Shown here piece after piece: positions 6,209 to 51,743 of a stretch of 64,000 nucleotides of DNA. The DNA is from Pantoea ananatis LMG 2665 (lineage in GTDB: Bacteria > Pseudomonadota > Gammaproteobacteria > Enterobacterales > Enterobacteriaceae). The position numbers were made by a program, and so were the translations under genes. How positions within the stretch are numbered: position 1 is the stretch's first letter; each line of letters opens with the position of its first letter. The notes under the pieces were generated by a model that did not search any database, had not been told where the DNA came from, and saw nothing but the letters and a program-made list of their open reading frames with translations. The stretch covers positions 186,001-250,000 of the forward strand of contig NZ_JMJJ01000005.1 of assembly GCF_000710035.2 (NCBI RefSeq), given 5' to 3'.

Positions 6209-7968
<1,760 letters not shown>

Positions 7969-7971
7969 CCC

Positions 7972-8596
7972 TCAGCGGCGAGACAGCGCCAGTTTCGCCG
8001 CAAAACCAATAAAGACGCAGCCCGTTAAACGGTCCATGATTTTGACTATTCGTGGCCGTTTTAACTGCTCAGCAAAATAGTGGCTGCTGCCGATCAGCAC
8101 CGTGCTCCAGGCCAACCCCACCAGCATGTGCGTCAACGCCATCAGGCTGCACCAGATCGGGACAGAGGCGCCCTGCGGAATGAACTGGGGCAAAAAAGTC
8201 ACATAGAAAACGCCCACCTTGGGATTCAGCAGATTCCCCAATAATCCACGCGTGAAGCAGGCAAGATGACGTTGCTGAGCCGCGGCCTCGGCATGCATTG
8301 ACACGTTTTGGGCGCGCGGATGCCACAGCAGCTTAATGCCCAGATAGAGGAGGTAAGCGGCGCCAGCCCACTTCAGCAGGTTATAAGCCATCTCCGACGC
8401 CAGCAGCAGCGCGCCTAATCCCAGCCCTACCGCAATGCCCCAGAGCAAACCAGCCGGTTGCCACGCCCAGCGCCGTGGCACTGGCACGCTGCCAGCCCTG
8501 TGCGGCGGCCGATCGCAGGATCAACGCCGTATCAAAGCCCGGCGTCAGGGTCAAAATAATAATAGCCAGCAGGAAAGAGAGCAACGAAGCCGTCAT
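7972..8596 (-). pseudogene. LysE/RhtB-family amino-acid exporter broken by a +1 frameshift
   Basis: Two overlapping minus-strand frames together encode one exporter. The N-terminal frame starts at ATG 8596 (MTASLLSFLLAIIILTLTPG, the family start) and fails after GVATGW; the second carries on with LLWGIAVGLGLGALLLAS, LKWAGAAYLLYLGIKL and LLNPKVGVFYVTFLPQF to the stop at 7972. Removing one A from the AAA at 8447-8449 joins them as GVATGW-LLWGIAVG in a 207-codon frame, the normal RhtB length. GGGGA lies upstream of ATG 8596. It is either a recent pseudogene or a sequencing error; the reading frame is otherwise intact. Confidence 0.85.
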
Positions 8597-8742
8597 AAGC
8601 GTATCCCCGGTAAACATCCGCTCACAATAACAAGCGGTTTTTTGTCTGTACAGCCAGCAAAACCCCATTAGCTGCTACCCTTTTAAGGGCTTTATCAACG
8701 GGCCGGTCACGGCCATGATTTATGCAATCAGGAGCAACGTTT

Positions 8743-9837
8743 ATGAAATTTATTTTCTCGTCACCGCGCAAATATGTGCAAGGTGCAGGCGTACTCGATG
8801 AACTGGGGAGCTACGTCACCGAACTGGGTACTCAGGCTTTTGTGGTCGCGGACGATGTCGTCTGGGGACTGATCGGTGAACGGGCTCAGGCCACGCTCAC
8901 AAAGGCGGGCATGAACGTGGTGCGCCAGCAGTTCAACGGCGAGGCGTCCAGTAATGAAATCACCCGGTTGAGCCAGAAGGCGCAACAGCAGAACTGCAAC
9001 GTGGTCATCGGGCTGGGCGGCGGTAAAACGCTGGATACCGTTAAGGCAGTGGCTGATGAGATCCAACAACCGGTGGTGATCGTTCCCACGATTGCCTCTA
9101 CCGATGCGCCCTGTAGCGCACTCTCCGTTATCTATTCTGACAGCGGCGTGTTTGAGAGCTACCGCTTCTACAATAAGAACCCCGATCTGGTGCTGGTGGA
9201 TACCGCCGTCTGTGCCGCTGCGCCTGCCCGCCTGTTTGCCTCGGGCATTGCGGATGGCCTCGCAACCTGGGTGGAAGCCCAGGCGGTAGCCCGCAGCCAT
9301 GCCAAATCGATGGTCAATGGCGATCCGACCATTGCCGGGCTGGCCATCGCCCGTGCCTGTGAGGAAACCCTGCTGACCTGGGGTTACAGTGCCTATGTTG
9401 CCGTTTCGGAAAAACGCGTGACGCCGGCGGTGGAAGCTGTGGTGGAAGCGAATACCTTGCTGTCGGGCCTGGGATTCGAAAATGCCGGCCTGGCAGCTGC
9501 GCACGCCATTCACAATGGTTTTACTGCTATTGAAGGCGATATCCATCATCTCACCCACGGCGAGAAAGTGGCCTACGGTACCTTAACCCAGATGGTGCTG
9601 GAGCAGCGTCCGGACGAGGAGATCGCACGCTACATCCGTTTCTATCGCTCGATCAAGATGCCCACCACCCTGAAAGAGATGCATCTGGAGGGCGAAAGCT
9701 GGGAAAATCTGGTGAAAATAGGCGCACTGGCAAACAGTGAAGGCGATACGCTGAAAAACCTTAACCCCAACCTGGCACCGGAGCAAATTGCCCATGCGCT
9801 GCTGGGGCTGGATGCGTTCAGTCAAACGGTAAAATAA
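8743..9837 (+). CDS. gldA: Glycerol dehydrogenase GldA
   Basis: GldA is an NAD-dependent, Zn-dependent group III polyol dehydrogenase oxidising glycerol to dihydroxyacetone. The start at 8743 (MKFIFSSPRKYVQGAG) follows AGGAGCAACGTTT. The nucleotide-binding loop GLGGGKTLDT is near residue 94, PTIASTDAPCSALSV near 117, and the metal-ligand regions are ASGIADGLATWVEA (near 167), AAAHAIHNGFT (near 250) and the HGEK block (near 269). Length is 364 residues. It faces the next gene convergently with only 3 bp between stops. Confidence 0.93.
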   Translation: MKFIFSSPRKYVQGAGVLDELGSYVTELGTQAFVVADDVVWGLIGERAQATLTKAGMNVVRQQFNGEASSNEITRLSQKAQQQNCNVVIGLGGGKTLDTVKAVADEIQQPVVIVPTIASTDAPCSALSVIYSDSGVFESYRFYNKNPDLVLVDTAVCAAAPARLFASGIADGLATWVEAQAVARSHAKSMVNGDPTIAGLAIARACEETLLTWGYSAYVAVSEKRVTPAVEAVVEANTLLSGLGFENAGLAAAHAIHNGFTAIEGDIHHLTHGEKVAYGTLTQMVLEQRPDEEIARYIRFYRSIKMPTTLKEMHLEGESWENLVKIGALANSEGDTLKNLNPNLAPEQIAHALLGLDAFSQTVK

Positions 9838-40509: not shown

Positions 40510-40863
40510 CTAGATACCTTGATGCTTAGAGGTAAAGAGTTCAGGGCCGTTATCGCGAAGGAGTTGCAGCATCCGCATCACCGGTGGGCTCGGTGTGATT
40601 TCACCTCGCTCCCATTTCGATACGCTATCGACCGTCATGCCAAATGAGAGCGCCACAAGCGATTGCGACATTCCCCAACGCATGCGCACGTCTTTGATTT
40701 CAGTTGCTGTCATGGGCTTTACTGATGCAATACGGGCACGGAGTTCACGATTTTTTGCGCGCTTTGCTATGGACTCCACTTCTTCATCTGTTGCCAGTCC
40801 TAACGCGTGAAACGCTTTCGCATCTTCAAGTAGTTCACTCAATTCGGCGGGTTCAGTTTTCAT
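40510..40863 (-). CDS. HigA-type antitoxin (XRE family)
   Basis: The 117-residue product has a C-terminal helix-turn-helix: IKDVRMRWGMSQSLVALSFG, then VDSVSKWERGEITPSPPVMRML, the XRE signature with conserved WERG. The acidic N-terminal part probably binds the toxin. It overlaps the upstream toxin gene by 11 bp in toxin-antitoxin order, as in higBA. It lies directly against the duplicated tRNA end, suggesting acquisition by site-specific insertion. Confidence 0.85.
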   Translation of the reverse strand: MKTEPAELSELLEDAKAFHALGLATDEEVESIAKRAKNRELRARIASVKPMTATEIKDVRMRWGMSQSLVALSFGMTVDSVSKWERGEITPSPPVMRMLQLLRDNGPELFTSKHQGI

Positions 40864-41245
40864 TACATTTAACCTCTCTGACCATTCCGCTTCTGACGAG
40901 CAGGCTCATCACTTCACTATTTGCACGGAAAAACATTCTTGCCACATCCCTGTAGGTATCCAGCTGATCTTCATCGATTTCCCTGGCATATTTCCTCGAC
41001 AAGTTTTTAACCCATCCATCGTAATAAACCAGGTTGGTGCCTTGTCTGAAGAAGATGACCGTTCGCACGCCGCCACGCTTGCCTTGGTGAAGAGCAAGAC
41101 GCTTTTTAATAACGCCACCGCCTAAGTCAGCCTCAAACACGCCAGTAATAACGTCACCTGCTGCGTAACACAGGACGCTGTCTGTCAGACGCGTTTTTTT
41201 AAACACTCTGTCAAAACGTTTATGAACATAAAGCGTAAAACCCAT
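40853..41245 (-). CDS. RelE/HigB-type toxin
   Basis: ATG 41245, with AAAAGGGA upstream, gives a 130-residue basic protein starting MGFTLYVHKRFDRVFKKTRL. The block GGGVIKKRLALHQGKRGGVR followed by TVIFFRQGTNLVYYDGWVKN is typical of the RelE-like group paired with XRE antitoxins, which act as mRNA interferases. A further 56 codons upstream lack conservation. Regulation is read from the promoter/operator at 41273-41301. Toxic activity is inferred from family and partner. Confidence 0.82.
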   Translation of the reverse strand: MGFTLYVHKRFDRVFKKTRLTDSVLCYAAGDVITGVFEADLGGGVIKKRLALHQGKRGGVRTVIFFRQGTNLVYYDGWVKNLSRKYAREIDEDQLDTYRDVARMFFRANSEVMSLLVRSGMVREVKCNEN

Positions 41246-41272
41246 GAAAAGTCCCTTTTCGTTATGGCGAGA

Positions 41273-41301
41273 ATTATAGTAATGATTACTACACTTCACA
41301 A
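41273..41301 (-). promoter_or_regulatory. Promoter and operator of the toxin-antitoxin pair
   Basis: On the minus strand TTGTGA (41301-41296), 17 bp, TATAAT (41278-41273). A perfect 7-bp inverted repeat, TAGTAAT-G-ATTACTA (41277-41291), fills the spacer, well placed for autorepression by the antitoxin. Confidence 0.78.
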
Positions 41302-41520
41302 GCCAAAGGCCCCTGGTCTTACGTCCAAATGGGTCTGAAGCTATTTGTAAAAAGCAAGAAATCCAATCGGTGCGCATCGCCATTACCGCTGGCCATGAAT
41401 AACACCCGCCCACACTATCAGCGATTCAGATTACCCACTCACCTGTTCACGCCTTGCGTACGCGAAGTGCGAGCCGCTCCCCAAAAAATTACGCGCTACG
41501 AAATGTATTCCCTACCAATA

Positions 41521-41568: not shown

Positions 41569-42516
41569 TTACTTTTTATCCAGCGACCATGTCGCGCTGC
41601 GGACATCGACCTTCACCGGCAATAAACCAATTTGTGTAAATTTATCTGCCAGTGCCTGCTGCTCTTTGAAAACATCCGGCGTCATCCGCTCGGCCCCTAA
41701 GGGCATTCTTGCCAGCGCGCGCTGCCAGATAGGTTCGGGCAGGCCAGTCGAGCCAGACAGAATTTTAGCGGCTTCGCCCTGGTTTTTATTCGCCCAGCTG
41801 CTCAGCTTTTGCAGCTCTGAAAGAACCTCTTTGGCCTCGTCTGGATGACCTTCCGCAAATTTGCGGCTGGCCAGATAAAAGGTGTAGTGCGGTACCAGCC
41901 CCTCGGCATTTTTAAGCAGCCGCGCGCCGGCGGTGGTTTCTACTTCCGCCAGGTAAGGGTCCCAGATGACCCATGCATCTACAGCGCCTCGCTGGAAAGC
42001 CGCTCGCGCATCAGCAGGAGGAAGATAAACCGGCGTGATATCCTTGTATTTTAGCCCCGCCTGCTCAAGGGCTGATACCAGAAGATAATTCACATCCGAT
42101 CCCTTGTTCAGGGCGACGCGCTTGCCTTTTAAATCCTTGACACTTTTTATCGTCGAATCCGCAGGCACCACTATGGCTTCGGTTTGTGGATTTGCCGGTG
42201 AATGGCCCAGATAAACCAGGTCAGCCTGCGCGGCTTGCGCAAAAGTTGGCGGCGCATCGCCCGTTGCGGCCAGATCGATGCTGCCTATGTTGAGCCCTTC
42301 CAGCATTTGCGGTCCCGCCGGAAATTCCACCCAGTGCACGGCAATCCCCTGCTTTTTGAATTCACTGTCGAGCGTGCCCCGGTATTTCAGTAAGGCAAAA
42401 ATGTTGGCTTTCTGAAAACCGATATTCACTACCCTGGGTTTCTCTTCTGCGTGTGCCGTCACGATGCTGCTAATGTGCGCGACCGCAAGCAGTGCGCTGA
42501 ATATGATTTTTTTCAT
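41569..42516 (-). CDS. SsuA-like sulfonate-binding periplasmic protein
   Basis: A 315-residue ABC-type binding protein from ATG 42516 (GGAAAG upstream). The signal peptide starts MKKIIFSALLAVAHISSIVT and ends AHA. The mature part has the SsuA/NMT1 blocks VNIGFQKANIFALLKYRG, VEFPAGPQMLEGLN, LAATGDAPPTFAQAAQ, GKRVALNKGSDVNYLL and AWVIWDPYLAEVE. No ssuB or ssuC permease genes are in the window, so it would need partners elsewhere. It follows the fused regulator gene by 94 bp in the same direction and is the evident paralogue of that regulator's C-terminal domain. Confidence 0.9.
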   Translation of the reverse strand: MKKIIFSALLAVAHISSIVTAHAEEKPRVVNIGFQKANIFALLKYRGTLDSEFKKQGIAVHWVEFPAGPQMLEGLNIGSIDLAATGDAPPTFAQAAQADLVYLGHSPANPQTEAIVVPADSTIKSVKDLKGKRVALNKGSDVNYLLVSALEQAGLKYKDITPVYLPPADARAAFQRGAVDAWVIWDPYLAEVETTAGARLLKNAEGLVPHYTFYLASRKFAEGHPDEAKEVLSELQKLSSWANKNQGEAAKILSGSTGLPEPIWQRALARMPLGAERMTPDVFKEQQALADKFTQIGLLPVKVDVRSATWSLDKK

Positions 42517-42610: not shown

Positions 42611-44497
42611 TCATTGCGACCACACCGCGTCACGTACGTTAATCGCGCGGGGAAAGAGGCCCAGCGCGTAGAAACGATCCGCGATTCTTTGCTGCTCACG
42701 AATGATCGCCAGATTCATTGGTTGCGTCTGGTGGCTCCGCCGGGCCAGCGCCAGGCGCAGCGCGCGATCAGACATCCCCAGCTCCCCGGCCAGCAGCCCG
42801 GCGGCCTCTTTAGGATGGGCATCAATGTAGCGCCCCGTCTGCTCCAGCGCGGTTACCAGTATTTCTAAAAGGTCTGGAGACTGGTTCGCGAAGTGGCGAT
42901 CGGCAAGGTAGAACTGATGGTTATTCACCCGTCCTACGCCGTCGGCAATGACCCGGAGCTGTTCCCCTTTTTCTGCCTCGCTCAGCAGAGGATCCCACAT
43001 CATCCATGCATCAACGGCATTCAGATCGCTGGGCGTGAGCGGGTATTTAGGCGGCGCGTACACAATCCGCACGTCCTCTGGCGTCATCCCCGCCTCATCA
43101 AGGATTTGCAGCAGCAGAAAATGCACGTTGGAACCTTTATTTACGGCAATACGTTTGCCTCTTAAGTCTGCCATCTGGTTTATCTGACTGTGCTTAGCCA
43201 CCAGCAGCGCCACGCTCTGTGGCGCGGGCGGCTCCCAGGCGACGTACACCAGAGAACAGTGACTGGCCTGGGCAAATAAAGGCGGCACTTCGCCGGTGGT
43301 GCCAAAATCAATTTCCCGATGGCTCAGCGCGTGCAGCAGCTGAGGCCCGGCGGGAAATTCGCTCCACAGGATGCTGACGTTTTGCCCGGCCAGCTGCTGT
43401 TCAAGCTGCTGGCGCGCTTTGAGGATGCCAAGGTTGCCAAACTTTTGATAACCAATGCGCAACTCGCGCTCCTGCGCGCCCGTTGTTGACGCGGTGCGAA
43501 GGGTTGAAGTCAGGCTGCGACGCGGCTTGATGATGCCGTAATGGCCAAGATGCGTACGCAGGCTGTTACGGCTAATCCCCAGCAACGCCGCGGCCTGTAA
43601 CTGGTTGCCCTGGCTTAGTTCATAGGCATTTCTCACCAGTGCCTCAATGACGCGGGGATAAAGTGGCGTGTCACTGCACTGGATCTGCTGGCGAATAAAA
43701 TCATCAAGCGCATCCTGCTTTTGTACCCGCCCCGTGCCCGTCACCGTGCCCAGCCGCAGCTGTTGTGGTTCTACCTGCGGTGTTTCACTGAGCAGCACCG
43801 CGTTGTGTAATGTATTTTCCAGTTCCCGTATATTCCCTGGCCAGGAATGGGCCTTGAGCGTTTCCATTGCCTCGTCGCTTAGGCGCAGCTGCGGTCGCCC
43901 CAGTCGGCGCGCATAGCTTTGCAGAAAATAGTTAGCCAGAACCGGGATATCCTCACACCGCTGGCGCAGCGGCGGCAAGGCAACGCTGGCGACGTTTAGC
44001 CGGTAGTAGAGATCCTCGCGAAACCGCCGCTCGGCTATCGCAGTCGTCAGATCGCGGTTCGTCGCGGCAATTACCCGGACGTCAACCTTTACTGCGCGAG
44101 AAGATCCCACGCGGGTAATTTCCCTTTCCTGCAGTACGCGAAGCAGTTTGACCTGAAGGGGCAGGCTCAGCTCGCCGATTTCATCCAGCAGTAACGTCCC
44201 GCCCTGCGCGGCCTCAAACCAGCCACGATGACGGTCGGTCGCGCCGGTAAATGCCCCCTTCTCATGACCAAAGAGTTCTGATTCTGCCAGGCTCTCCGTT
44301 AGCGCACCGCAGTTCACTGCCATAAAGGGCGCATGGCGGCGCGGGCTGTGATGATGCAGATAGCGCGCCATCACCTCTTTGCCAGTGCCGGTTTCACCAA
44401 TGATTAATACGGTCGCGTCCGTGGGCGCCAGCTGATCCAGAATATGCCTGAACGCCAGGGAAGCAGGGTCAATTAAATCGGGGCCAGCGTGTTGCAT
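42611..44497 (-). CDS. Sigma-54 activator fused to an SsuA-like binding domain
   Basis: Numbered from ATG 44497 (AGGA 8 bp upstream; 628 residues), the AAA+ domain has Walker A GETGTGKE at 34-41, the sigma-54 loop GAFTGA at 81-86, Walker B LLLDEIGE at 102-109 and [10 protein letters not shown] near 219. A Fis-type helix-turn-helix ([20 protein letters not shown]) is at 298-317. From about 345 to the end it is an SsuA-like domain ([59 protein letters not shown]) close to the neighbouring exported protein but with no signal peptide. This SfnR-like activator has its likely sensor after the DNA-binding domain, an unusual order. A TTG at 44587 is a less likely start. Confidence 0.92.
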
Positions 44498-44579: not shown

Positions 44580-44626
44580 TGCTGCAAATACAGCAGTATC
44601 CTTCACATATTGCTGCATTTGCAGCA
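44580..44626 (+). promoter_or_regulatory. Two activator-binding palindromes (UAS)
   Basis: TGCTGCAAATACAGCA (44580-44595) and TGCTGCATTTGCAGCA (44611-44626) share TGCTGCA-N2-T-N-CAGCA. Their centres are 31 bp apart, three helical turns, and lie at about -129 and -98 from the predicted sigma-54 start. They are the probable sites of the divergent fused activator. Confidence 0.72.
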
Positions 44627-44689: not shown

Positions 44690-44706
44690 TTGGCACGTAT
44701 CCTGCT
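44690..44706 (+). promoter_or_regulatory. Sigma-54 (-24/-12) promoter of the sulfonate operon
   Basis: TTGGCACG-TATC-CTGCT contains GG-N10-GC (44692-44693 and 44704-44705) and matches the sigma-54 consensus at nearly all positions. The start would be near 44717, about 59 bp before the SsuD-like gene. The AT-rich stretch 44640-44685 could bend to allow looping. Confidence 0.8.
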
Positions 44707-44775: not shown

Positions 44776-45948
44776 ATGCCTGATACCGCTGAAAAAAACA
44801 TCAATCTTTTTTGGTTCTTACCGACACATGGTGACGGGCGTTATTTGGGAACCACCCAGGGCGGCAGAGCGGTAGACCTGCCCTATCTGCAACAGGTAGC
44901 CCTTGCCGCCGATAATCTGGGTTTCTATGGCGTTTTAATTCCCACTGGAAAAAGCTGCGAAGATGCCTGGCTGGTAGCCTCTGCGCTGGTGCCGATTACT
45001 AAACAGCTTCGCTATCTGGTAGCCGTCCGGCCGGGATTGCAGCCACCCAGCCTGGCGGCGCGCATGGCGGCTACGCTGGATCGTCTGTCTGAAGGACGTT
45101 TGCTGATCAATGTGGTGACCGGCGGCGATCCGGTTGAAAACAAGGGCGACGGCATTTTTCTCAGCCACGCTGAACGTTATCAGGTCACCCGTGAGTTTCT
45201 TGATGTCTATTCCCGCCTGCTTAAAGGAGAGAAAGTGGACTATCACGGGGAACATATTCACGTGGAAGGGGCTGAGATCCTCTTTCCACCGGTACAGGCC
45301 GAAGGTCCACCGCTTTATTTCGGTGGCTCATCCGATGAAGCGGTTGACGTTGCAGCCCGTCAGGTTGATACCTATCTGACCTGGGGCGAACCCTTAGCGC
45401 AGGTTGCCGCTAAACTTGAAGGGGTGCGGAAGCGCGCAGAGGAACGCGGCAGGACGCTTTCCTACGGTATTCGTCTGCACGTCATCGTGCGGGAAACCGA
45501 GGAAGAAGCCTGGGCCGCGGCGGATAAGCTGATCGCACATCTGGATGAAGACACCATCGCCGCCGCCCAGAAAATCTTTGCCAGAATGGATTCGACCGGA
45601 CAGGCTCGCATGAGCGCACTCCACGGTGGCTCGCGTGATGGACTGCGCATCGGTCCCAACTTATGGGCTGGCGTCGGTCTGGTACGCGGCGGCGCGGGTA
45701 CCGCGTTGGTGGGAAATCCGCAGCAGGTCGCGGAACGGATTCGGGAATACCAGGCGCTGGGCATTGATAACTTTATTCTGTCCGGTTATCCGCATCTCGA
45801 AGAAGCACACCGGGTTGCCGATTTGCTGATGCCGCTGTTGCCGCTTTCAACCCCTGCGGGAAATAAACAGCGCACGGTTAATACCGGTCCTTTTGGCGAA
45901 ACCATCGGAGGCGACCGTCGTCCCGAAAAACAGGCCAGTGCAAGCTAA
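44776..45948 (+). CDS. SsuD/MsuD-type FMNH2-dependent sulfonate monooxygenase
   Basis: A bacterial-luciferase-like enzyme of 390 residues that cleaves alkanesulfonates to sulfite and an aldehyde with FMNH2 and O2. It has [17 protein letters not shown] near 10, [18 protein letters not shown] near 52, [28 protein letters not shown] near 180, and [14 protein letters not shown] and [19 protein letters not shown], all E. coli SsuD blocks. An extended loop region near 290 is present. No SsuE-type flavin reductase is nearby. AAAGGA lies 8 bp upstream. Confidence 0.92.
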
Positions 45949-45963: not shown

Positions 45964-47376
45964 ATGTCCGAGCAGCATATTGTCATTGTGGGTGGAGGAT
46001 TCAGCGGAACGGCGCTGGCCGTTCATCTTGGTCGTCTGGGCGGCCCGGGCCTGCGCGTCACGGTCATCGAACCCCGCGCGCAGCTGGCCCAGGGCGTAGC
46101 TTACTCGACCACCGATCCGGCGCATCGCACCAACGTCCCCGCCTCGCGTATGCAACTCGCCGGCGACGAGGAAGGCAGCTTTGAGCGCTGGTTCCGTGCC
46201 TCTGCCGCATTTGCCAGGGATGCGGCGGCTGAATGGCACGACGGCACGGTTTTTCCGCAGCGTAGGCAGTTTGGCCAGTGGGTCAGTGAACAGTTTAGTG
46301 CAGTAAAACAGCATTCCCCTGTTGAGCTGTTGCATGTGCAGGACCGCGCCGTTGCGCTGCGACAAGGTACGGTCAGCACCGCATCCGGCGCACATCTCGA
46401 TGCTGATATCGTGGTACTGGCCATCAGCCATCCCGCGCCTCAACTTCCCTCAGCCCTGGCCTCGCTGGCACCTCACCCGGCACTGATTGCCGATCCCTGG
46501 CGGGAAGGTGCCCTGTCACAGATTGCGCCTGACGACCGGGTTGCCATTGTGGGTACCGGCTTAACCATGTCAGACATGGTTGCGACCCTGGACCGTCAGG
46601 GACATCGCGGGCCAGTCACCGTCTTTTCCCGACGCGGTCAGCTTCCGCGTTCCAGCCTCACTGAGGACAATTTCAGCTGGCATCTTGGTATTGATTTCAG
46701 CAAACCTCTGGGTGTTCGCGCCTGGCTACGCCGGATCAGACAGGAAATTCGCCAGGCGGCGGCCAGGCACATCCCGTGGCAGGTGGTGTTCGATGAGGTC
46801 CGTCACAACGGTCAGGCGATTTGGCAAAGCCTGTCGCTGGATGAACAACGGCGTTTCCTGCGGCATCTGCGGCCATGGTGGGACGTTCACCGTTATCGGA
46901 TTGCCCCCCAGGTTGGGCAGGTGTTAAAGCACCACCAACGCAGCGGCACACTCCGCGTGCTCGCCGCACGACTGACCGCGGCGGCGGCGTTGCCCTCTGC
47001 CGTCAGGCTCAGCCTGCAGCCGCGTTTCGGCGGCGTACAGGCGCTGGAGGTGGACAAGATCATCGTCACCACCGGTCCTGCGCATGGCGCGTTGATTGAG
47101 CGCGATGCGTTACTCAACCAGCTGGCTCAGGATGGCGTTATTCAGTCCGATCCGCTGGCGCTGGGAATTCATGTCAATGCCCGGTCACAGACGCTAAACC
47201 CCAAGGGCCAGGCGAATCCTCATCTGTATGTGGTCGGGCCTGCGGCGCGCGGACGTTTTGGTGAATTAATGGGCCTGCCGCAGGTTGCCACACATGCTGA
47301 GGCCGTCGCACGCCAGTTGCTCAACCTCACTGATGACACGCGTCATGAGCGATGTCCCCTTTCTCTGACTAATTAA
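45964..47376 (+). CDS. FAD/NAD(P)-binding oxidoreductase
   Basis: The 470-residue product has the N-terminal FAD fold HIVIVGGGFSGTALAVHLGR near 5 and a second dinucleotide fold DRVAIVGTGLTMSDMVATLD near 194, with TNVPASRMQLAGDEEGSF near 52, typical of the FAD-NAD(P)-binding family (hydroxylase/HpnW-like group). The reaction is unknown; it could supply reduced flavin or oxidise an organosulfur intermediate, given its place 15 bp after the SsuD-like gene. GAGAGGCAGTGT precedes the ATG. Confidence 0.85.
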   Translation: MSEQHIVIVGGGFSGTALAVHLGRLGGPGLRVTVIEPRAQLAQGVAYSTTDPAHRTNVPASRMQLAGDEEGSFERWFRASAAFARDAAAEWHDGTVFPQRRQFGQWVSEQFSAVKQHSPVELLHVQDRAVALRQGTVSTASGAHLDADIVVLAISHPAPQLPSALASLAPHPALIADPWREGALSQIAPDDRVAIVGTGLTMSDMVATLDRQGHRGPVTVFSRRGQLPRSSLTEDNFSWHLGIDFSKPLGVRAWLRRIRQEIRQAAARHIPWQVVFDEVRHNGQAIWQSLSLDEQRRFLRHLRPWWDVHRYRIAPQVGQVLKHHQRSGTLRVLAARLTAAAALPSAVRLSLQPRFGGVQALEVDKIIVTTGPAHGALIERDALLNQLAQDGVIQSDPLALGIHVNARSQTLNPKGQANPHLYVVGPAARGRFGELMGLPQVATHAEAVARQLLNLTDDTRHERCPLSLTN

Positions 47377-47444: not shown

Positions 47445-48854
47445 ATGCCTAAACAACGTGAAATCCGCCTTAATGCGTTTGATATGAACTGTGTGGGTCA
47501 CCAGTCACCTGGCCTGTGGGCGCACCCTCGCGACCGCTCGTGGCAATACAAAGATCTGGAATACTGGACAGATTTGGCGGTCCTGTTGGAACGCGGTAAG
47601 TTCGACGGCCTGTTTATCGCCGACGTCTTGGGGATTTACGATGTTTTCAACGGGAATAATGATGCTGCTCTTCGCAGTGCCGCCCAGGTACCGGTCAATG
47701 ACCCGCTGGCTCTGATTACGCCGATGGCGATGGTGACAAAGCACCTCGGTTTTGGCCTGACCGCATCACTCTCTTTTGAGCATCCCTATCCGTTTGCCCG
47801 GCGCATGTCGACGCTGGATCATCTGACCAAAGGTCGGATCGGCTGGAATATCGTTACCTCCTATCTGGAAAGCGGAGCCCGCAATCTGGGACAGGTCAGC
47901 CAAACCAGCCACGATGCGCGTTATGACTACGCCGACGAATATCTGCAGGTGGTATACAAGCTGCTGGAAGGCAGTTGGGAGGATGATGCCGTGATACGCG
48001 ATCGCCAGCGTCATATTTTCAGCGATCCCAATAAGGTGCATCCCATTAATCATCAGGGAACGTTTTTCCAGGTACCGGGCATTCATCTGTGTGAGCCTTC
48101 GCCCCAGCGCACGCCTGTGCTGTATCAGGCAGGCGCATCCAGCCGCGGTAAAGCCTTCGCCGCACAACACGCCGAGTGCGTATTTGTTGCCGCGCCGTCT
48201 AAAGTGCTGTTGAAGAAAACCGTGGCTGATATACGTCGTCGTGCAGAGGAGGCCGGTCGCGATCCGCGCAGTATTCTGATTTTCAATATGCAAACGGTCA
48301 TTGTGGGGGAAACCGATAAAGCGGCCCAGGCCAAGTGGCAGGATTACAAACGCTATGTCAGCCATGAAGGCGCACTGGCGCTGATCTCCGGCTGGACCGG
48401 CATCGATTTCAGTCAGTACCAACCCGATCAGGTTTTTAAGCATCTGCATACCGATGCCATTCAGTCTGTTGTAGAGAGCTTCTCCACAGCCGATCCGCAG
48501 CGTGAATGGACGGTGCAAAACATGGCCGACTGGGTGGGCATTGGCGGCTTTGGCCCCCTGCTGGTGGGCAGCACAGAAACCGTTGCCGATGAACTGCAAA
48601 GCTGGGTGGAGGAGACGGACGTGGATGGCTTTAATCTGGCCTATGCCCTCACGCATGAAACCTTTGCTGATGTCGTCGATCTGCTGGTGCCGGAACTGCA
48701 AAAACGTGGCGTTTATAAACAGGATTACCAACCCGGTACGCTGAGAGAGAAGCTGTTTGCTAAGGGCGCCCGCCTTGAGCATCCTCATCCCGGCGCAGGA
48801 TATCGACGCACAACCTCGGTATCAGGCCGGGTTGTGCCTGCGGAGGCATCATGA
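47445..48854 (+). CDS. NtaA/SnaA/DszA-type flavin monooxygenase
   Basis: A 469-residue luciferase-like enzyme of the nitrilotriacetate monooxygenase group, which includes DszA (dibenzothiophene sulfone) and DmoA (dimethylsulfide). Typical blocks are LNAFDMNCVGHQSPGLW near 9, DGLFIADVLGIYDVF near 52, GRIGWNIVTSYLESGARNLG near 128, DYADEYLQVVYKLLEGSW and VLYQAGASSRGKAFAA near 225. AGGAG precedes the ATG. It uses FMNH2 from a reductase not found in this window. Substrate cannot be read from sequence. Confidence 0.9.
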   Translation: MPKQREIRLNAFDMNCVGHQSPGLWAHPRDRSWQYKDLEYWTDLAVLLERGKFDGLFIADVLGIYDVFNGNNDAALRSAAQVPVNDPLALITPMAMVTKHLGFGLTASLSFEHPYPFARRMSTLDHLTKGRIGWNIVTSYLESGARNLGQVSQTSHDARYDYADEYLQVVYKLLEGSWEDDAVIRDRQRHIFSDPNKVHPINHQGTFFQVPGIHLCEPSPQRTPVLYQAGASSRGKAFAAQHAECVFVAAPSKVLLKKTVADIRRRAEEAGRDPRSILIFNMQTVIVGETDKAAQAKWQDYKRYVSHEGALALISGWTGIDFSQYQPDQVFKHLHTDAIQSVVESFSTADPQREWTVQNMADWVGIGGFGPLLVGSTETVADELQSWVEETDVDGFNLAYALTHETFADVVDLLVPELQKRGVYKQDYQPGTLREKLFAKGARLEHPHPGAGYRRTTSVSGRVVPAEAS

Positions 48855-48963: not shown

Positions 48964-49087
48964 CTTATCTACAAAAATCAAATTAACTTATTGAAATTAA
49001 AGTAATAGTTATCACTTTTTGTTGTTTGTTTACATCGCGATTCCTGCATATAAAGGCGTCACCTGTACAGACAATAACGAGGATAAA

Positions 49088-50548
49088 ATGAGCACATTAA
49101 ATATCGATGACGATGCCGCGATCCCCTTACCTCACTCAACGCCCATTCGCTCCGTCAGCGACGTTGCAAAGTTGATTAATACGCAAAGTGAGAAAAACAG
49201 CTACGCACGCTGGATCGTGTTTCTGGCGTTAGGCGGCGTATTTCTGGATGCCTACGACCTGACCACCCTGTCTTACGGCATTGATGATGTCGTGAAAACA
49301 TTCAGCTTAACGCCCACATTAACCGGACTGGTCACCTCATCCATTATGATTGGCACCATTGTCGGTAATCTGGTCGGGGGCTGGCTGACGGATAAATATG
49401 GCCGCTATTCCGTCTTTATGGCGGACATGCTTTTTTTTGTGGTGTCCGCTATTGCGGCCGGCCTGGCGCCGAACGTCTGGGTACTGATTGGCGCGCGCTT
49501 TTTGATGGGCGTTGGTGTGGGCATCGATTTGCCTGTCGCGATGGCCTATCTGGCCGAATTTTCGAAATTCTCCGGAAAGGGGAATAAAGCGTCGCGGCTC
49601 GCCGCCTGGTGCCCCATGTGGTATGCCGCGTCTTCGGTGTGCTTTCTGATTATTTTTGGCCTTTACTTTCTGCTGCCTGCAGAGCACCTCGACTGGCTGT
49701 GGCGCGCTTCATTGCTGTTTGGCGCAGTGCCTGCCCTGCTCATCATTGCTGTGCGCAGCAGGTTTATGAATGAGTCTCCGCTGTGGGCCGCAAACCAGGG
49801 GGATTTAAGCGGCGCAGCGCGAATCCTGCGCGATTCGTACGGCATTCACGCGCACGAAGATAAGCGCGCTGAGCCGGCGGCCAAACCCGTCGCCCAGGCG
49901 GTCAGTTTTCGCGTCTTGTTTCAAAAACCTTACCGGGAGCGCACCGTTGTGGCGGCGGTGATGAACGCCTGTATTTCATTCGAATATACGGCGATCGCCT
50001 TTTTCCTGCCCTCTATCCTGGCGCAGTTTCTGGGGGCGGGCGTCTTTGAAACGATCTCCGCCTCGCTAGGACTTAACGCGCTGTTCGCCTTTACCGGCGG
50101 CCTGCTTGGCATGCGTCTGGCCTGGCGATTTCCGTCACGCCATGTTGCGATTGCCGGATTTGCCCTGCAGTTTATTGCGCTGATCTCACTGGCTCTGATT
50201 GGCCATCCTGTTGCAACCTACGGCGTCGTATTTGCCATTTTACTGCTGGGGCTGTGGTTGTTTGCTGAGGGCTTTGGGCCAGGAGCGCAGTTAATGATCT
50301 ATCCCGCCCTCTCCTATCCCACGCACATTCGGGCCACCGGCGTCGGTTTTAGTCGTTCCGTCTCAGGCATCGGGAGCGCGCTGGCGCTGTTCATTCTGCC
50401 CATATTGCAGGCGGCTTATGGCACCAATATATTCTGGATCGTGTCACTGGCCGCCCTTATTCCCATCATTTTCCTGTTAGTCGTCCGGTTTGAACCCACT
50501 CGTCACGATATCGATGACCAGTCAACACACGGAGAACACCATGTCTGA
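49088..50548 (+). CDS. MFS transporter (organic-acid/aromatic-acid type)
   Basis: A 12-helix major facilitator of 486 residues from ATG 49088 (CGAGGATAAA upstream). Signature motifs are GGVFLDAYDLTTLSYGIDD in helix 1, GNLVGGWLTDKYGRYSVF between helices 2 and 3 and ARFLMGVGVGIDLPVAMAYLAEF in helix 4, like sugar-porter and aromatic-acid families. It probably imports a sulfonate or another anionic organosulfur compound; this is inferred from the operon. Its stop overlaps the next start by 8 bp. Confidence 0.87.
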   Translation: MSTLNIDDDAAIPLPHSTPIRSVSDVAKLINTQSEKNSYARWIVFLALGGVFLDAYDLTTLSYGIDDVVKTFSLTPTLTGLVTSSIMIGTIVGNLVGGWLTDKYGRYSVFMADMLFFVVSAIAAGLAPNVWVLIGARFLMGVGVGIDLPVAMAYLAEFSKFSGKGNKASRLAAWCPMWYAASSVCFLIIFGLYFLLPAEHLDWLWRASLLFGAVPALLIIAVRSRFMNESPLWAANQGDLSGAARILRDSYGIHAHEDKRAEPAAKPVAQAVSFRVLFQKPYRERTVVAAVMNACISFEYTAIAFFLPSILAQFLGAGVFETISASLGLNALFAFTGGLLGMRLAWRFPSRHVAIAGFALQFIALISLALIGHPVATYGVVFAILLLGLWLFAEGFGPGAQLMIYPALSYPTHIRATGVGFSRSVSGIGSALALFILPILQAAYGTNIFWIVSLAALIPIIFLLVVRFEPTRHDIDDQSTHGEHHV

Positions 50549-51743
50549 GCCCGATTACACCTCACTGGCGGCGCGTTTCCGCCCCATCTTTGCCCGCATC
50601 GCCGAAGGCGCTGCCGATCGCGAACGGAATCGTACCCTGCTTCACGAGCCGGTTCGCTGGCTGAAGGCGGCGGGTTTTGGCACGCTGCGTATTCCACAAG
50701 CAAACGGCGGATTGGGTGCCTCGCTGCCACAACTGTTCCGCTTACTGACCGAGCTGGCAGAAGCGGATTCTAACCTGCCTCAGGCGCTGCGCGCGCACAT
50801 GGCCTTTGTCGAGGATCGTCTTAACCAGCCCGACAGTGAGGCGCGCCAGCGCTGGTTTAATCGGTTTATCGACGGTGATATTGTCGGGAGCGGCTGGAGT
50901 GAAACAGGCAGCGTTCGATTAGGAGACGTGAATACGCAGGTGTCGCCCGCCGCCAACGGCTGGCGGCTTGAGGGCGAAAAATTTTACAGCACCGGCACGC
51001 TGTATGCCGACTGGATTGATGTTTACGCTAAGCGTACGGACAACCAGCGCGATGTCATTGCGGTGGTCAGTACACATCAGGATGCGGTAGTGCGAGAGGA
51101 TGACTGGGACGGATTTGGTCAACGTCTTACCGGTAGCGGAACCACGCGTTTTCATCAGGCCGTTGTGGAACCTGCCCATGTCTATGATTTCAGCGAGCGC
51201 TTCCGATATCAAACCGCCTTCTATCAGCATGTCTTACTGGCGACGCTGGCCGGGATAGGCAGGGCTATCGTGCGGGACGTGTCACAGGGCGTAGCAAACC
51301 GAAAACGAATCTACAGCCACGGTAATGCCCGTCAGGTCAGCCAGGACGTGCAGGTCTTACAGGTGGTGGGACAGATCAGCAGTTGGATATGGGCAACCGA
51401 TGCCGCCGTGCAGCGGGCCACGCACGCGCTGCAACAGGCTTTTGATACGCACGTTCAGGGACAAGATGAAACGCAGATTCATGCCGCCAACGTCCAGGCA
51501 GAAGTGGAGGCTGCGAAGGCGCAGGTCGTGGCCGTGGATTGGGTGACGCGTGCGGCCAGTGAGCTGTTTAACGCGCTTGGCGCGTCAGATACGCGAGTGA
51601 GTAAAGCGCTGGACCGTCACTGGCGCAATGCCCGAACGATTGGCTCGCACAATCCGGTGATCTATAAAAGCCGTAACGTGGGCGACTGGGAAGTCAACGG
51701 GCGCGATCCTACCTTTATCTGGCAAATCGGCAGCGGCGAATAG
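50541..51743 (+). CDS. DszC/SfnB-type acyl-CoA dehydrogenase-fold flavoprotein
   Basis: A 400-residue protein from ATG 50541 (CGGAGAACACC upstream). The acyl-CoA dehydrogenase fold is clear: LKAAGFGTLRIPQANGGLG near 36, GSGWSETGSVR near 115, GWRLEGEKFYSTGTLYADW near 137, and C-terminal RHWRNARTIGSHNPVIYKSR near 365. The group includes DszC and the sulfur-starvation proteins SfnB/MsuC, FMN-dependent monooxygenases of organosulfur compounds. It is the last gene, coupled to the MFS gene. Confidence 0.88.
   Translation: MSEPDYTSLAARFRPIFARIAEGAADRERNRTLLHEPVRWLKAAGFGTLRIPQANGGLGASLPQLFRLLTELAEADSNLPQALRAHMAFVEDRLNQPDSEARQRWFNRFIDGDIVGSGWSETGSVRLGDVNTQVSPAANGWRLEGEKFYSTGTLYADWIDVYAKRTDNQRDVIAVVSTHQDAVVREDDWDGFGQRLTGSGTTRFHQAVVEPAHVYDFSERFRYQTAFYQHVLLATLAGIGRAIVRDVSQGVANRKRIYSHGNARQVSQDVQVLQVVGQISSWIWATDAAVQRATHALQQAFDTHVQGQDETQIHAANVQAEVEAAKAQVVAVDWVTRAASELFNALGASDTRVSKALDRHWRNARTIGSHNPVIYKSRNVGDWEVNGRDPTFIWQIGSGE

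Follow-up and report, generated by a model that had tools for sequence, protein, structure and literature searches.

A putative sigma-54 activator with an SsuA-like domain behind its DNA-binding region lies divergent to an ssuD-like gene in Pantoea ananatis

The window analysed here is a stretch of 64,000 nucleotides from Pantoea ananatis LMG 2665 (contig NZ_JMJJ01000005.1, positions 186,001 to 250,000). On its minus strand lies a gene, referred to below as the fusion, that joins the domains of a sigma-54 activator to a C-terminal SsuA-like domain. It is flanked by a free SsuA-like gene and, on the opposite strand, by a cluster that starts with an ssuD-like gene. The features of this region are as follows, with positions counted in the window.

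40853-41314, minus strand: RelE-type toxin-like protein near the cluster (PF06296, 89.5 bits)
41569..42516, minus strand: free SsuA-like protein downstream of the fusion, with an N terminus that looks like a signal peptide by eye (family match, tree)
42611..44497, minus strand: fusion gene, sigma-54 activator with a C-terminal SsuA-like domain, 628 aa (one open frame, Pfam and NCBIfam matches)
42614..43474, minus strand: SsuA-like domain, residues 342-628, without signal peptide (position behind the helix-turn-helix)
43481..43522, minus strand: linker, residues 326-339, low-confidence and probably disordered (pLDDT below 50 in the structure model)
43541..43663, minus strand: Fis-type helix-turn-helix (HTH) region, residues about 279-319 (weak HTH_8 match and model helices)
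43751..44452, minus strand: AAA+ sigma-54 interaction domain and lid, residues 16-249 (GETGTGKE and GAFTGA motifs, Pfam)
44580..44595, no strand assigned: upstream site 1, palindrome TGCTGCAAATACAGCA (conserved across intergenic regions)
44611..44626, no strand assigned: upstream site 2, palindrome TGCTGCATTTGCAGCA (conserved across intergenic regions)
44691..44706, plus strand: predicted -24/-12 (sigma-54) promoter TGGCACGTATCCTGCT ahead of ssuD, the only perfect TGGCACGNNNNNTGC match in the window
44776..45948, plus strand: ssuD-like FMNH2-dependent alkanesulfonate monooxygenase, predicted target (TIGR03565, 606 bits, cut-off 518)
45964..47376, plus strand: FAD/NAD(P)-binding protein, predicted target operon (PF13454; adjoins ssuD in most loci)
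47445..48854, plus strand: NtaA/DmoA-family FMN-dependent monooxygenase (TIGR03860, 574 bits)
49085..50548, plus strand: MFS transporter (PF07690/PF00083)
50541..51743, plus strand: SfnB/DszC-like acyl-CoA-dehydrogenase-fold monooxygenase (best match TIGR04022, 249 bits, below the cut-off of 431)

Translation of the minus strand gave no stop between 42611 and 44497. This confirms the claim of an earlier note on this DNA that a single frame runs through an AAA+ domain, a Fis-type HTH and an SsuA-like domain without a signal peptide. The ATG used here, with AGGAA ending 6 nt ahead of it, is also the start residue in the alignment of close relatives, a few of which have longer starts; a TTG in the same frame is found 90 bp upstream of the ATG. 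A Pfam search of the 628-residue protein returned Sigma54_activat (PF00158, 233 bits), AAA_lid_14 (82 bits) and NMT1 (46 bits), and the AAA+ domain carries both the Walker A motif GETGTGKE and GAFTGA. The HTH_8 match of 20.4 bits (E 4e-4) fell just under the cut-off of 22; PF02954 is annotated in many relatives of the fusion, and the structure model places helices at residues 279-294, 299-306 and 310-319. Residues 346-627 matched the NCBIfam family SsuA_fam (TIGR01728) with 184.1 bits, above the cut-off of 163.5, and the narrower NF008588 with 233 bits, below its cut-off of 299. The AAA+ part was weak in a first structure model; a second was good over residues 341-628 (block means 86-97) and weak in parts of 61-172. 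As the genome also encodes RpoN (PF04552, 237.5 bits), the domains, together with the predicted sites and promoter described below, mark the protein as a probable sigma-54 enhancer-binding protein with a predicted activator function.

The same architecture recurs in other genomes. When protein databases were searched for it, the best 120 of 8000 scored homologues all combined the sigma-54 and NMT1 domains, and included proteins from Pantoea, Serratia, Erwinia, Rouxiella, Tatumella, Kalamiella, Gibbsiella and Brenneria. Genome samples were counted with three to four candidates scored per genome, so that the following numbers are lower bounds. In the window's family, at least 38 of 343 sampled genomes, from 19 of 154 genera, matched the fusion, always in single copy. 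It was whole in at least 37 of these genomes and broken in the 38th (G1000); among the sampled genomes of the other 135 genera, some of them very small, no match was found. A sequencing artefact is excluded by the presence of both domains in these homologues and by the whole fusions in the family. An even sample of the wider order yielded matches in at least 3 of 394 genomes, all of the window's genus. A phylum sample queried with the Azospirillum fusion yielded at least 14 of 398, of which two were fusions (the window's genome and a congener) and the others unfused activators. Of 72,556 plasmid records, 71 carry the fusion (Pantoea 65, Klebsiella 2, Methylocystis 2, Chimaeribacter 1 and Azospirillum 1). 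Outside the enterobacteria, whole fusions were found in two alphaproteobacterial genera, Azospirillum and Methylocystis. At 80% cover, a DNA-level copy was found in none of 5426 E. coli genomes, and a scan of genome contigs with generic peptide patterns recovered mostly distant activators.

Two of the loci appear damaged. In locus L179 (G1000:C23) the match to the fusion starts only at residue 190 and contains one stop, and the cluster seems to be decaying. A second copy of the cluster on plasmid pSS37A-Re-1 of Methylocystis iwaonis (L207, about 6457-9216) has an IS5-family transposase gene between an activator fragment and an annotated substrate-binding protein gene, apparently the result of a transposase insertion into a fusion gene. 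In public annotations the fusion appears either as a sigma-54 regulator or as an 'aliphatic sulfonate ABC transporter substrate-binding protein'. The latter name is misleading for a cytoplasmic regulator, and the present analysis corrects it for the several fusion regulators that databases name as transport proteins.

The gene neighbourhood was compared across 43 enterobacterial loci (five plasmid records, 37 genomes and the window, some of the same species). The ssuD gene was divergent and adjacent to the fusion in 42 of them, the exception being L179 with its broken fusion; in the Klebsiella locus L015 the annotation places a hypothetical gene of 38 residues in the gap. The free SsuA gene, which starts 94 bp downstream of the fusion in the window, was directly downstream in 12 loci, and in 7 others it stood at the operon's far end. 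It was not found within the fetched stretch of 24, although L015 has an annotated one that is cut by the far edge. In Pantoea vagans C9-1 (L009) the adjacent free SsuA is split over two frames and may be broken, and the fusion is intact. Genes of the MetQ/MetI/MetN-type methionine ABC transporter occur in the operon at many loci (L012, L014, L015 and others) and were not found in the window's cluster. An sfnG gene lies near the fusion in some of the 43 loci, and the Azospirillum and Methylocystis fusions also lie near ssuD, sfnG and msuE. The scan of eight cluster proteins in the window found an MFS carrier and no cognate SsuB/SsuC-type permease or ATPase.

The DNA between the fusion and ssuD contains the elements expected of a sigma-54-dependent operon, as predicted from conserved motifs. 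A GG-N10-GC element was present in 42 of 42 usable fusion/ssuD intergenic regions, a count that has no shuffle control. In 41 of these regions (the exception is L177) the two best TGYTGCANNTGCARCA-like palindromes keep a distance of 31-32 bp from each other and of 78-81 bp from the -24 element that follows them; in the window, TGCTGCAAATACAGCA and TGCTGCATTTGCAGCA lie 31 bp apart. The best palindromes match 11-14 of 14 set positions. Their summed score was 25.8 of 28, compared with 17.2 (sd 0.2) in letter-shuffled regions, where the shuffles kept letter composition only and the consensus was drawn partly from the same loci. Matches to the -24/-12 pattern with one mismatch numbered 19 in the window against 8.6 by chance, an approximately twofold excess. 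Allowing one mismatch, the palindrome occurs 18 times in the genome, and only the two sites described here neighbour each other, so the regulator looks dedicated to its own cluster. With 82 bp between site 1 and the ATG of the fusion, autoregulation is possible; no sigma-70-type promoter for the fusion gene was found upstream of it.

The same box, followed by a sigma-54-type element, occurs in Azospirillum before msuE and before the amidohydrolase/ssuD genes, and in Methylocystis before sfnG and ssuD. At four loci of unfused relatives (L182, L185, L187 and L188) TGTTGC-N4-GCARCA lies 99-103 bp before sigma-54-type elements upstream of msuE, and in two of the four it is also found upstream of sfnG. 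The box scan of 19 unfused and alphaproteobacterial loci, controlled by letter-composition shuffles only, includes several hits that resemble noise and left seven loci without a hit, among them L184, with an msu operon, and the Burkholderia locus L205.

How did the two halves of the fusion come together? The earlier note had named the neighbouring free SsuA gene as the probable source of the fused domain, and this was not borne out. The fused domain is 39% identical to the adjacent free SsuA, and it comes closer (46-52%) to free sulfonate-binding proteins from Azospirillum, Pseudomonas, Cupriavidus and others. In a tree of the SsuA half, 31 fused domains formed one clade (96/92) and 13 adjacent free SsuAs a separate one (100/99). 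This tree included 13 of the 17 adjacent SsuAs (without L009, which has two frames, L143, L146 and L150) and 30 of the 108 listed near-full-length free relatives (P0133-P0242 without the short P0222 and P0225). An AU test of a joint clade of fused and adjacent SsuAs was borderline (p 0.049), so that a very old common origin of the two is weakly disfavoured. The tree does not include P0131, a metagenome protein (58% identical, on a 1248-bp contig) that starts like a signal peptide and continues, in its second half, like the fused domains; its contig may be chimeric, or the protein may truly be a free relative.

Unfused activators share about 50% identity with the activator half and end shortly after the HTH (14 loci, with frames of 370-495 aa from stop to stop). 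These unfused relatives follow msuE-ssuD-SfnB-like genes in five of the 14 loci, from 12 genomes, and in Burkholderia pyrrocinia one lies divergent to msuE-sfnG-sfnB. The order at the former loci matches the msu-sfnR arrangement mentioned in the available text of PMC8234197, and from this likeness we infer the name SfnR; the activator half is likely of this type. In a tree with no characterised SfnR sequence it fell into one large clade with unfused SfnR-like proteins (100/99).

In this tree, the grouping of the 25 fused sequences alone was rejected (p 1.6e-5), with three intruders among them. One intruder, P0268, proved to be a fusion that loses its reading frame in the SsuA-like half, and a clade that counts it as fused was still rejected (p 0.001). 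When the other two, P0263 and P0283, were also included, a single clade was not rejected (p 0.41). Both are unfused and group with the enterobacterial fusions (99/100), closer to these than the alphaproteobacterial fusions are, which implies either a single fusion event and a subsequent loss or two separate events. The best tree sets P0263 and P0283 outside a group of enterobacterial fusions and P0268, with a support of only 40/10. The single clade of fused SsuA domains, which has long branches (Azospirillum, Methylocystis, L177 and L178), favours a shared origin of the alphaproteobacterial and enterobacterial fusions.

Both halves of the fusion are under strong constraint: dN/dS was 0.02-0.20 in the SsuA-like half (13 of 15 pairs computed) and 0.02-0.15 in the activator half (14 of 15), with several dS values saturated (over 1.4). 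In X. citri SsuA, according to the available text of PMC3839906, the sulfonate head group is held by Gln36, Gly68, Gly86 and Ser141, and Trp185 lies at the alkane chain. The corresponding positions in the fusion, Gln351, Gly384, Gly402, Asn457 and Trp501, show no variation among the 49 fused proteins. Four are identical to those of X. citri; the place of Ser141 is taken by Asn, which all 30 close free relatives have as well. The 13 adjacent SsuAs all have Asp here and the two canonical SsuAs have Ser. Elsewhere the fused domains depart from these 45 unfused proteins. Arg487, present in all 45, has become Leu in every one of the 49 fused proteins; the PADARAAF segment of the free proteins is replaced; and the hinge Glu, again invariant in all 45, has given way to Val in 46 of 47 enterobacterial fusions. 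This Glu corresponds to Glu106 of TauA, whose Ala mutant showed no measurable taurine binding according to the available text of PMC6906117. With this Glu lost, the ligand or the closure of the domain may differ from SsuA. A pocket that is kept while other conserved sites are lost fits a sensor freed from the transporter, and we predict from these residues that the fused domain binds a sulfonate in the cytoplasm.

Our best explanation, which we judge about equally likely to be right or wrong, is that an SfnR-type activator carries a C-terminal cytoplasmic SsuA-like sensor and that a sulfonate would switch on the divergent ssuD operon. The capture of a transport protein domain as a cytoplasmic sensor, as put forward in the earlier note, is thus kept as the best reading of the lack of a signal peptide, the conserved pocket, the position after the HTH and the SfnR-like setting; the proposed local source of the domain is not. 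Dimers would bind the two palindromes, which are spaced by about three helical turns, and would be brought to the promoter by looping. A sulfonate entering the cell would bind and close the two lobes of the SsuA-like domain, and this closure would promote assembly or activity of the AAA+ ring. The active ring would then open sigma-54 RNA polymerase at ssuD, and the desulfurization genes would be transcribed, with the sulfonate as co-inducer rather than inhibitor. Since the chain of the unfused relatives stops soon after the HTH, the extra domain would make a sulfate-starvation response depend on substrate as well; the placement of P0263 and P0283 means that a close relative does without the sensor. 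A fuller account, possible in our view but somewhat short of an even call, is that the signal path is inverted. The domain behind the HTH would read the sulfonate by lobe closure and gate ring assembly from the DNA side. In this account an SfnR-type gene would have been fused with one for a sulfonate-binding protein like those that Azospirillum, Pseudomonas and Cupriavidus have today, and the product would have spread through the Enterobacterales along with its operon.

The C-terminal domain could instead bind an end product or a signal of sulfur sufficiency (sulfate, sulfite or another oxyanion) and shut the activator off, the unliganded protein being active like its unfused relatives. These relatives are complete without the domain, oxyanion-binding proteins have the same fold, and with the hinge Glu replaced by Val in enterobacterial fusions the specificity may have shifted. 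We nevertheless consider this rather unlikely: the head-group site is of the alkanesulfonate-binder type, X. citri SsuA does not bind sulfate according to the available text of PMC3839906, and the predicted target operon starts with a sulfonate-specific enzyme. The invariant pocket, which all 49 fused proteins retain although they lost sites invariant in the unfused ones, makes it improbable that the domain is a scaffold for dimerisation or stability without a ligand, since a pure scaffold could do without its pocket. Control would then lie in gene expression alone, as for SfnR under CysB; consistent with this, SfnR-type relatives need no sensor, including the unfused P0263 and P0283 that group with the enterobacterial fusions.

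We give very little weight to the idea that the domain does not sense free ligand and instead reports uptake by docking to a transporter from the cytoplasmic side. C-terminal binding-protein-like domains do regulate the cyanobacterial NrtBCD/CmpBCD transporters, to judge from PDB entry titles, but the cluster proteins scanned in the window include an MFS carrier and none of the SsuB/SsuC type. The proposal that the adjacent free SsuA gene was recently duplicated and fused has the gene's position in its favour, in the window as in the 12 loci mentioned above. It is nonetheless extremely improbable: no free SsuA was found directly downstream in 31 of 43 loci, and the low identity and separate clades rule out the neighbour as a recent source.

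Among the open-licence papers that our searches listed, none described the AAA+-HTH-SsuA-like architecture or a sigma-54 activator with a sensor behind the HTH. Enhancer-binding proteins generally sense ahead of the AAA+ domain, according to the available text of PMC8657755, and a sensor behind the DNA-binding domain would be unusual for sigma-54 activators. Each part has separate precedents, namely a C-terminal solute-binding domain in regulators and the fold as a regulatory domain of transporters. If the sulfonate-sensor reading is true, a sensor-less activator would have gained ligand control by one fusion, the protein would be a one-protein sulfonate biosensor, and the control of organosulfur use in plant-associated enterobacteria would be explained.

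SsuA normally works in the periplasm. Compared with the SsuA proteins of E. coli (2x26) and X. citri (3e4r, 3ksj and 3ksx), the fused domain has no signal peptide and is joined to a DNA-binding activator. It also differs from the free proteins in the replaced PADARAAF segment and hinge Glu. SfnR of Pseudomonas putida and P. aeruginosa is a sigma-54 activator of sulfone and sulfonate genes that has the AAA+ domain and the HTH without an N-terminal sensor, and its expression is under CysB as part of the sulfate-starvation response. The fusion resembles it in that the fusion and its unfused relatives lie beside msuE, ssuD/msuD and sfnG genes, and that unfused relatives from such loci share about half of their residues with the activator half; it differs by the roughly 290 residues of SsuA-like domain behind the HTH. 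PspF likewise consists of AAA+ domain and HTH only, and activators of the HrpR/HrpS and PspF type are controlled by partner proteins or by expression, not, as predicted for the fusion, by an attached ligand domain. HrpR and HrpS also have only these two domains and no N-terminal sensor, according to the available text of PMC8657755. SgrR and DsvR use another solute-binding protein family and another DNA-binding domain than the fusion. To our knowledge they have no AAA+ domain and no sigma-54 dependence. They are similar in that a C-terminal solute-binding domain (SBP_bac_5) is part of a transcription factor with an HTH, as described in the available text of PMC13060122. The C-terminal regulatory domain of NrtC/CmpC (PDB 9uai, 9uak and 8wm7, by entry titles) has the same broad fold as the fused domain, and is part of a transporter rather than of a transcription factor.
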